A stretch of DNA of 64,000 nt from Haloarcula mannanilytica (GTDB lineage: Archaea > Halobacteriota > Halobacteria > Halobacteriales > Haloarculaceae). The notes beneath the pieces were generated by a model. That model was not told the DNA's origin. It saw nothing but the letters and a program-made list of their open reading frames with translations, and did no database searches. The stretch is from the NCBI RefSeq assembly GCF_005406125.1, contig NZ_BIXZ01000001.1:992001-1056000 (forward strand). Reading direction: 5' to 3'. Position 1 is the first letter of the stretch; every line of letters begins with the position of its first letter. Shown here in pieces: positions 32,541-61,367 of the stretch. A program made the translations under genes and the position numbers.

Positions 32541-32637
32541 ACCGGCTGTCGTAGCTCGATCAGTATGAAATCAAGGTGTCACGTCCGGACTGGACGAGGC
32601 CACGGCGTCGCCCAGCCGTTCCCAATCAAACGAGGGT

Positions 32638-32948
32638 GCTCACTCCGTCCGCGCCCTTCGCTCTCCTCACGGGTCGTTCCTCCCCGTCGTCGGGCGGCAA
32701 TACCGCCCGACTGCCTGCGGGACCGAAGGTCCCGCTCCGCTCGCAATTCCGAGAGCCGCGCTTCGCGCGCCCCTCGCTACTCCTCACGGCTCGCTGACGC
32801 TCACCGTTCGCATGAAACGAGGCCGCTCACTTCGTTCGCGCCCTTCGCTCTCCTCACGGCTCCTACCGTCGCCGTTCGCATGAAACGGGGCCGCTCACTT
32901 CGTTCGCGTCCTCGCTACTCCTCACGGCTCGCTCCAGCTCGCCGTTCG
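32638..32948. repeat. Degenerate intergenic direct repeats of about 68 bp
   Basis: The 450-bp gap between mscS and carA is filled with related copies of a unit reading gctcacttcgttcgcg, a cctcgct-rich middle, tcctcacggctc, then gccgttcgcatgaaacg. Two good copies start at 32825 and 32893 (68-bp period), with partial copies near 32757 and 32638. The unit is not coding in any frame. The string gaattcgcggttctc further on pairs with cgaaccgc before the carA stop to form a hairpin (about 32956-32989). Confidence 0.75.
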
Positions 32949-32989: not shown

Positions 32990-34036
32990 CTACTCCCCCG
33001 CCATCCCCAGCACATCATCGAAGAAGCCAAGCGAGTCGTGTGGGCCGGGGTTGGCCTCGGGGTGGTACTGACGCGTGATGATGTTCAGGTCGTCGTTCTC
33101 CAGCCCTTCTGGCGTATCGTCGTTGACGTTAATCTGGGTCACGTCGAGCTTGTCGCCGGGGTCGGCGACGGTGTAGCCGTGGTTCTGGGTCGTCATGACG
33201 ACCTGGTTCGAACGCAGGTCACGGACCGGCTGGTTCACGCCGCGGTGGCCGAACTCCATCTTTTCGGTCTCGCCGCCCAAGGCGTTGGCGACGACCTGCT
33301 GGCCGAGACAGATGCCCGCGAGCGGTACGTCGCCGACGTAGGTCTCGACGAGTTCGCCGGCCTGCTCGAAGTTCTCGGGGTCGCCGGGACCGTTCGAGAT
33401 GAACAGCAGGTCCGGGTCCACCGCGGCCACGTCGTCCTCGCTGGCGTTGTAGGGGAACACATGGACCTCGGCGTCGCGCTCGACCAGCGAGGAGACGATA
33501 GAACCCTTCGCGCCGCAGTCGACCAGCGCGACCGTCTCGCCGTCGCCGCCCTCGTTGTGGACCTCAACCTCGTCGACGGACACCTGCGCGCCGATGTCGG
33601 TGTGATCGGACATGTGCTTGCACTCGTGGAGTTCATCGAGCGCGTCCTGTTCGGTCACGTCCGGACCGGCGGCGATGCCGCATTTCATCGCCCCCTCGTC
33701 GCGGATTTCGGTGACGATGTCGCGCGTGTCGAGGTGGTCGACAGCGGGGACGCCCTCGCTCTCCAGCCACTCGGCCACGTCGTCGGTCATCTCGCGGGCC
33801 ACCGCCGCGCGCGGGTGGACGCGGTCGGACTCGAAGCGCTCCTCTCGGACGCCGTAGTTCCCGATCAGCGGGTAGGAGAACGTCAGGACCTGCTCCTCGT
33901 AGGAGGGGTCGGTGAGACTCTCCTCATAGCCGGTGTACGCCGTTGTGAATACCAGTTCGCCACGGGCGGTGCCGGGAGCGCGAGCGCGCGCCTCGATGAC
34001 GCGGTCGCCTTCGATTGCCACGTATGCGTCAGCCAT
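32990..34036 (-). CDS. carA: Carbamoyl-phosphate synthase small (glutaminase) subunit
   Basis: 348 residues. The N-terminal half has the small-subunit domain (GELVFTTAYTGYEESLTDPSYEEQVLTFSYPLIGNYG). The class I glutamine amidotransferase half has SNGPGDP, the nucleophile Cys in LAGICLGQQVVANALGG, and the His/Glu pair in ITRQYHPEANPG. It releases ammonia from glutamine for carbamoyl phosphate, feeding pyrimidine and arginine synthesis. The partner carB lies 4.7 kb away at 38783-42034, same strand, with three genes between. A TATA-like cttatggcc (minus strand, about 34061-34069) lies about 27 nt upstream. Confidence 0.96.
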   Translation of the reverse strand: MADAYVAIEGDRVIEARARAPGTARGELVFTTAYTGYEESLTDPSYEEQVLTFSYPLIGNYGVREERFESDRVHPRAAVAREMTDDVAEWLESEGVPAVDHLDTRDIVTEIRDEGAMKCGIAAGPDVTEQDALDELHECKHMSDHTDIGAQVSVDEVEVHNEGGDGETVALVDCGAKGSIVSSLVERDAEVHVFPYNASEDDVAAVDPDLLFISNGPGDPENFEQAGELVETYVGDVPLAGICLGQQVVANALGGETEKMEFGHRGVNQPVRDLRSNQVVMTTQNHGYTVADPGDKLDVTQINVNDDTPEGLENDDLNIITRQYHPEANPGPHDSLGFFDDVLGMAGE

Positions 34037-34657: not shown

Positions 34658-34724
34658 ATATACGAGCGGCGCAGCCACGAGTAGTAGCCCAGTTCGAGGC
34701 GAGCGAATAGGAATCGAGTGGCTC

Positions 34725-34807
34725 ATAGTGATTCTTGTAGATTATTTCCGGATAGCGCCGCCCCCGGAGGACGGCGCGTCCCGGTAAATCGCTCCAAGAA
34801 TCACTAT
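34725..34807. mobile_element. 83-bp inverted-repeat element, copy 1 (MITE-like)
   Basis: Perfect 13-bp terminal inverted repeats (atagtgattcttg and caagaatcactat) enclose an imperfectly palindromic core with cggatagcgccg on one side and cggcgcgtcccgg on the other. The whole element can fold into one long hairpin. It is too short to code. Copy 2, inverted, is at 61247-61328. Read on the minus strand, it starts at the stop codon of the gene ending at 34807, as copy 2 does with its own neighbour. Confidence 0.75.
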
Positions 34808-35433
34808 CAGTCGCTGTCGTCGTCGATTGGCTGCCCGCGGTAGTATGTCGTCTGGTCGCTCTCCGTATCGTCGGTCGTGGTGTCTTGTGGCGCGACGGGT
34901 CGGCCGCGATACATGACCCGATTGGCGTTGTCGTCGCCGTCGATGGAGTCCGGACTCTCCTGTTGATGATTCTCGATGAACTCGGCGGCCGCCTTGAGGA
35001 CCGATTTGTCGGTCTTGCGGTGGACCCAGCAGTGGTACATCTTCCGTGGAGTCCGGAGCGCGAGTCGGTGCGCACGGAACCCAGTCTTGGTGGTGACATC
35101 TGCAACCGACTCGTGTGGGACCTCGATGACCTCGTCGTCCTCGTCTTTCCCGATAAGACAGAGCGTCCGACGGCCAGTGATCAGAATGACTGTCCGGCGG
35201 TCCCCGACCGGCGAGTCGGTCTTGCGTTTCGTCCCGCGACCGACGCCGCGCTTCCCGTTTGTCAGGAGATACGCCGGTGCTTCCGCGCCGTCGAGGTAGG
35301 TCAGCGGTGGGTTGTTCAGCGGCGGCGACTCCGAGAATCGGCTCTCGTGCCCAGCGAGGACCGCCGTCGTAACCGAGTCACTGGGAGCCATCTCCGCGAC
35401 CGTCTCCGCCCGGTCTGCGACGTTCTCTATCAT
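34807..35433 (-). CDS. Haloarchaeal protein with PH-like core and YRG(R/Q)P motifs
   Basis: 208 residues. The middle (about 45-160) has a beta-rich block resembling a bacterial PH-like domain: LTYLDGAEAPAYLLTNGKRGVGRG, RRTVILITGRRTLCLIG, EVIEVPHESVADVTTKTGFRAHRLALRTPRKMYHCWVHRK, then helix AAAEFIENHQQ. The acidic tail carries two copies of a short motif, MYRGRPV and YYRGQPI, 24 residues apart. No enzyme motif is seen. Its stop codon abuts the 83-bp inverted-repeat element. Confidence 0.75.
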   Translation of the reverse strand: MIENVADRAETVAEMAPSDSVTTAVLAGHESRFSESPPLNNPPLTYLDGAEAPAYLLTNGKRGVGRGTKRKTDSPVGDRRTVILITGRRTLCLIGKDEDDEVIEVPHESVADVTTKTGFRAHRLALRTPRKMYHCWVHRKTDKSVLKAAAEFIENHQQESPDSIDGDDNANRVMYRGRPVAPQDTTTDDTESDQTTYYRGQPIDDDSD

Positions 35434-60935: not shown

Positions 60936-61247
60936 GTGAGTAATCAGAAACAGATCCAGCCACAGTGTCTGAGTGCCCAACTCGAAGCAGTACAGCACGA
61001 GGACCGCCGAGCGGTACTGTTCGCGTTGCGGGGGGCGGAGCAGTGGCGACCGGCCGCAGCTGCCGATGACGGAGACCTCATCGGCGAGCCATCAATTCCA
61101 GCCACTCTGTACCACCAGCATCTCCCGAAACTGGCGGAGATGGGACTCATCGAATGGAATCGGGAGACCCACCGGGTGACACGCGGACCGGAGTACGAGC
61201 GGCTCCGGCCGCTGCTCGACTTTCTCTACGAGTACTACGACGACTGA
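60936..61247 (+). CDS. Winged-helix (DUF7344-like) regulator
   Basis: 103 residues, mostly one winged helix: QLEAVQHEDRRAVLFALRGAEQWRPAAAADDGDLIGEPSIPATLYHQHLPKLAEMGLIEWNRETHRVTRGPEYERLRPLLDFLYEYYDD. The segment ATLYHQHLPKLAEMGLIEW holds the recognition helix and WNRETHRVTRG the wing. The GTG at 60936 is chosen because the TATA cluster at 60899-60911 lies about 25 nt upstream, and the longer frame has non-coding composition. The stop codon is the first of three stops in TGATAGTGA, where an inverted-repeat element begins. Confidence 0.8.
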   Translation: MSNQKQIQPQCLSAQLEAVQHEDRRAVLFALRGAEQWRPAAAADDGDLIGEPSIPATLYHQHLPKLAEMGLIEWNRETHRVTRGPEYERLRPLLDFLYEYYDD

Positions 61248-61328
61248 TAGTGATTCTTGGAGCGATTTACCGGGACGCGCCGACCCCGGTGGCGGCGCTA
61301 TCCGGAAATAATCTACAATAATCAGTAT
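61247..61328. mobile_element. 82-bp inverted-repeat element, copy 2 (MITE-like)
   Basis: The same element as at 34725-34807, in opposite orientation in the window. Left end atagtgattcttg is identical; right end caataatcagtat has two mismatches to the ideal repeat. The core shares gagcgatttaccggga, cgcgccg and ggcggcgctatccgg with copy 1. It begins at the last base of the stop codon of the winged-helix gene. Confidence 0.75.
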
Positions 61329-61367
61329 GAGAAGCGCGGATTGTGACGCCCCGCACCGCATGGCCCG

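Follow-up and report, generated by a model that had tools for sequence, protein, structure and literature searches.

The two short inverted repeats found in the stretch of Haloarcula mannanilytica DNA analysed here (64,000 nt, referred to as the window) are very probably copies of a MITE that often sits at stop codons through the combined effect of its target sequence and selection. The repeat family is short (71-82 bp), non-coding and multicopy, has terminal inverted repeats and is flanked by a target site duplication. The original prediction had offered either a mobile MITE whose target resembles a stop codon or a structured RNA element at gene 3' ends. The first of these was borne out by further copies, a 3-bp duplication, empty sites, insertion in both orientations and the coincidence of the TSA trinucleotide with TGA stops.

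Two copies in the window start at stop codons

The positions of both copies, their flanking duplications and their host genes are listed below. Scores are from a covariance model of the repeat family built from 35 diverse copies, and gene calls are from a codon-usage caller made for the analysis.

34723..34725, no strand: target duplication on the distal side of copy 1, TCA on the plus strand and TGA on the gene strand, read from the sequence
34726..34806, minus strand: probable MITE, copy 1, 81-bp core, TAGTGATTCTTGG...CAAGAATCACTA on the minus strand (covariance model 94.1 bits, E 3.3e-21)
34807..34809, minus strand: target duplication on the proximal side of copy 1, which is the TGA stop of the upstream gene (distance 0)
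34807..35433, minus strand: host gene of copy 1, stop codon hit (called gene, 208 aa)
60936..61247, plus strand: host gene of copy 2, stop codon hit (103 aa from the called start, DUF7344)
61245..61247, plus strand: target duplication on the proximal side of copy 2, which is the TGA stop codon (from the sequence and the distance to the stop)
61248..61327, plus strand: probable MITE, copy 2, 80-bp core, TAGTGATTCTTGG...CAATAATCAGTA (covariance model 86.5 bits, E 2.8e-19)
61328..61330, no strand: target duplication on the distal side of copy 2, TGA, read from the sequence

Both elements had been predicted, at 34725-34807 and 61247-61328, and both were confirmed with their cores redrawn to 34726-34806 (-) and 61248-61327 (+). 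Each copy is bracketed by a direct trinucleotide repeat that the original prediction had overlooked (copy 1, TCA/TCA; copy 2, TGA/TGA), and in both cases this trinucleotide is TGA when read in the direction of the upstream gene. The description of the ends as perfect 13-bp terminal repeats held for copy 1, whose arms are perfect, and not for copy 2, which has two mismatches in 12 bases; the length of 13 bp counts in a single base of the target duplication at either end. As predicted, on the gene strand both copies start where a called gene ends in TGA, and the transcript of each would fold into one long hairpin (copy 1, -49.3 kcal/mol, z -7.2; copy 2, -33.8 kcal/mol, z -3.5). The host gene of copy 1 (34807-35433, -) had no confident Pfam family. 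Elsewhere in the window, at 32614-32948, a 62-nt repeat unrelated to the MITE is present in three direct copies with 77-87% identity and adjoins a gene at 32990.

The repeat is common in Halobacteria

The original prediction had suggested a search of this and other haloarchaeal genomes, and this search returned dozens of further copies for which orientation, duplication and distance to the stop codon were recorded. The host genome (Haloarcula, 4.2 Mb) has about 27 copies of the roughly 80-bp repeat. A blastn-type search of this genome found about 20 copies beyond the pair in the window (E = 1e-39 to 1e-9), and a pattern of the terminal repeats matched 31 times forward and 30 times in reverse as compared to 1 and 3 matches for a reversed control. 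Matches to the repeat were detected in 25 of 60 relatives. Hits in named records included Haloarcula hispanica, H. marismortui, H. litorea, Halomicrobium, Halocatena, Halapricum, Halococcus and Natrinema plasmids, and the Haloarcula rara chromosome. Of the 194 Halobacteria genomes sampled, 87 from 34 of 65 genera matched the covariance model, making this a common small repeat of the class. When a sample of the phylum was searched (247 genomes), 13 genomes had matches and all 13 belonged to one order.

Copy number was higher in some genomes. One of them (G098) has about 140 copies, its terminal repeats numbering 139 in the forward and 138 in the reverse direction with 0 control matches; in another (G152) the numbers were 86 and 90. 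Identical copies were numerous inside single genomes, including distant ones, suggesting recent movement of the family. Some copies appear to be old and vertically inherited, as four species carry the element at one shared site, some 37 bases upstream of the start of a gene (L045, L050, L052, L118). Half elements such as L131 looked like truncated copies. Phage records searched with the element gave no match, and the matches of viral contigs to the terminal-repeat pattern were isolated singles that we judged to be due to chance.

Insertion is precise and duplicates three bases

Perfect 3-bp direct repeats were present at 101 of 133 copies from the host and related genomes, and in 98 of these the repeated trinucleotide was TGA or TCA. 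Empty sites were sought by joining the flanks of ten copies from the host genome and searching 31 genomes with the joined sequence. Orthologous empty sites with a single TGA were found in several relatives, one of them matched at 90% identity; for example, relatives read GGCGACGACTGAGTGTCGCC where the host genome reads GGCGACGACTGA-(80 bp)-TGAGTGTCGCC. Both window copies have such counterparts, with one TGA at the empty site of a relative for copy 1 (L233) and one TGA at three empty sites of copy 2 (L222-L224). Insertion of the element is therefore precise and is accompanied by a 3-bp duplication. The consensus of the target was GWC-TSA-GWC, and insertions away from stops showed the same preference. 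At stop codons the core was found in both orientations relative to the gene (56:38). As the core can lie either way relative to the TGA, this trinucleotide belongs to the target and not to the element.

These results bear on whether the repeat could be a single-strand DNA element recognised through its hairpin. Elements of the IS200/IS605 or REPIN/RAYT type are typically imperfect palindromes of similar size, and in this family the complementarity of the arms and of the apical stem is conserved more than their sequence. However, the IS200/IS605 and REPIN/RAYT systems are not known to duplicate their target, and they integrate in a single orientation. The 3-bp duplication, the single-copy empty sites and the use of both orientations relative to a directional TGA make such an origin very unlikely.

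Target sequence and selection probably account for most of the placement at stops

The placement at gene ends is real: 95 of 165 clean sites are the exact TGA stop of a called gene, and the other 42% lie elsewhere. It had been supposed that target duplications would speak against a gene-end bias; here the two are present together. In the first set of sites the stop codons hit were TGA in 78 of 79 cases, with one TAA and no TAG, as compared to 212 of 470 control genes (45%) ending in TAG or TAA. The left half of the target motif, GAC TGA, is also the commonest gene end here.

The expected share of stops was calculated by weighting each background TGA of the same loci by the insertion motif. With the motif taken from non-stop sites, the predicted stop share of non-coding hits was 28% against the observed 58% (p = 3e-15), and with the motif taken from all sites it was 49% against 58% (p = 0.016); these p-values are rough, as sites were treated as independent and some are orthologous. 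The expectation of 49% is generous because the all-site motif is contaminated by stop context. Only one probable coding insertion was found among the 165 sites, whereas the motif predicted that about 56% of hits would be coding. Motif preference combined with loss of coding insertions thus predicts 28-49% of copies at stops, explaining most or all of the bias; a small excess stands above the most generous motif expectation.

This excess over the 28-49% expected is what would favour a transposition machinery that actively recognises gene ends beyond the TSA motif, perhaps by sensing the termination of translation or of transcription. A modest additional preference for gene ends may exist. We consider active recognition unlikely, as TGA was essentially the only stop hit, non-stop insertions are governed by the same motif, and selection against insertions on the promoter side would yield the same excess.

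In the mechanism that we propose for the MITE, a transposase supplied in trans would cut the palindromic GWC-TSA-GWC with a 3-base stagger, the element would enter in either orientation and the TSA (TGA or TCA) would be duplicated. The usual end of a haloarchaeal gene, the Asp codon GAC followed by TGA, would provide the left half of the target, so that insertion at a stop would leave GAC TGA before the element. With a duplicated TGA in front of the element the upstream protein would be unchanged, giving a simple route for a transposon to insert exactly at a stop codon and leave the gene unharmed. Insertions into coding sequence would disrupt genes and then be lost, and target sequence together with purifying selection would thereby concentrate copies at stop codons. 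We infer that the transposase is of the DDE type, and selection is the presumed cause of the missing coding insertions.

The arms of the element covary

The terminal inverted repeats measure 12-15 bp, and at 165 sites 10 or more of the 15 arm positions are complementary. Inside them are a conserved and asymmetric motif (CGATTTACCGG...CCGGAAATAAT) and a variable apical hairpin. This inner motif (CGATTTACCGGTA / ATCCGGAAATAAT, alignment columns 16-28 and 53-66) is kept across families; it is unpaired in the predicted consensus structure and is possibly a protein-binding site. Covariation extends over the arms and the apical stem, with changes on both sides in 19 of 27 pairs, 109 double-change cells as compared to 33 in shuffles, and a covariation score of 0.36 as compared to 0.04-0.14 when the partners were slid.

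Strong covariation of both stems, a stable hairpin and the start of so many copies exactly at a stop codon are also what a structured 3'-end RNA element, recruited by genes as a terminator, processing site or stabiliser, would display. This reading is very unlikely and the part of the original prediction that proposed it is not upheld. The element is absent from the orthologous genes of relatives, its insertions are lineage-specific and often recent, a large share of copies lie away from stops and those at stops may point with the gene or against it. There was no terminator-like site at either window element and no Rfam match in the window. T-runs just downstream were found at 13 of 95 copies as compared to 7 of 95 controls, which gave no convincing rule. 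Mismatches on the sense strand of copies at stops were G-U in 22 cases and A-C in 21, which is not an RNA signature, as selection for RNA pairing would be expected to favour G-U. Where a haloarchaeal transcript ends in a hairpin, the hairpin may often be a copy of this element, and such ends should not be taken as conserved terminators.

As G-U is not above A-C on the transcribed strand, it seems to be at the level of DNA that the pairing of the arms is constrained or homogenised. The element may need to adopt a DNA hairpin or cruciform in order to be mobilised, or template switching may homogenise its arms. Covarying terminal repeats are unusual for a transposase recognition site; they are puzzling if the transposase recognises its ends in the ordinary way, and count against the MITE account. 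We tentatively raise the possibility that the family is a transposase-orphan, haloarchaea-wide element in which arm pairing is conserved and not sequence, and for which duplication makes the TGA stop a safe harbour.

Comparison with known elements and search for a partner

PIF/Harbinger Tourist MITEs duplicate the central 3 bp of a short palindromic target. They share the 3-bp duplication seen here, as do IS5-type elements with their MITEs, and no matching autonomous element was present among the loci examined. REPINs and PATEs are small palindromic dispersed repeats mobilised in trans, REPINs being paired REP hairpins that go with a RAYT; they are not known to duplicate their target, in contrast to the 3-bp duplication demonstrated here by empty sites. 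Elements of the IS605 type and PATEs are not known to have terminal inverted repeats or a target duplication, and both are present in this family.

MITEs described from haloarchaea and other archaea are, like this family, short and non-coding with terminal inverted repeats, target duplications and many copies, and their partner IS is often absent or not recognisable (PMC3119063, PMC3852290). The archaeal MITEs that have been tabled are 89-570 bp long and are listed for single hosts (PMC3852290). The present family differs in its length of about 80 bp, its occurrence in many genera, the TSA duplication, the placement at gene ends and the covarying arms. Among MITEs of IS5-type elements with a 3-bp duplication, one of Methanosarcina acetivorans is 140 bp long and was attributed to ISMma12 (IR 16, DR 3) (PMC3852290). 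The SMR-A and SMR-B repeats of Haloquadratum are 80-110 bp long, with inverted terminal repeats, many copies and no identifiable transposase; SMRs make no target duplication, and SMR-A has a strong preference for IS605/PATE palindromes (PMC3119063). The family shares size, inverted repeats and high copy number with the SMRs, but duplicates TSA and sits at stop codons. Our literature search found archaeal MITEs and SMRs, and no description of this family in the open papers searched.

Candidate transposases were sought in three genomes, which had 20, 37 and 47 PF01609 matches. No partner with matching ends was found among the 30 of 104 PF01609 loci examined, which have other ends, or among up to 16 of 44 PF13358 loci examined, and the genomes tested contained neither PF13586 nor PF13359 matches. 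The Haloquadratum survey, too, reported MITEs with a broken or missing partner (PMC3119063), and a survey of 30 archaeal genomes listed 19 MITE-like structures without a partner (PMC3852290). A 2.1-kb candidate partner (L324, contig C1 of G152, at about 1.564 Mb) was rejected because it looks like a copy of the MITE into which a different IS has inserted. The apparent interrupting insertion sequence at this locus is about 2 kb long and has GAGGGTGTCATAGAAC ends, and the adjoining TTTATTGT may be its duplication.
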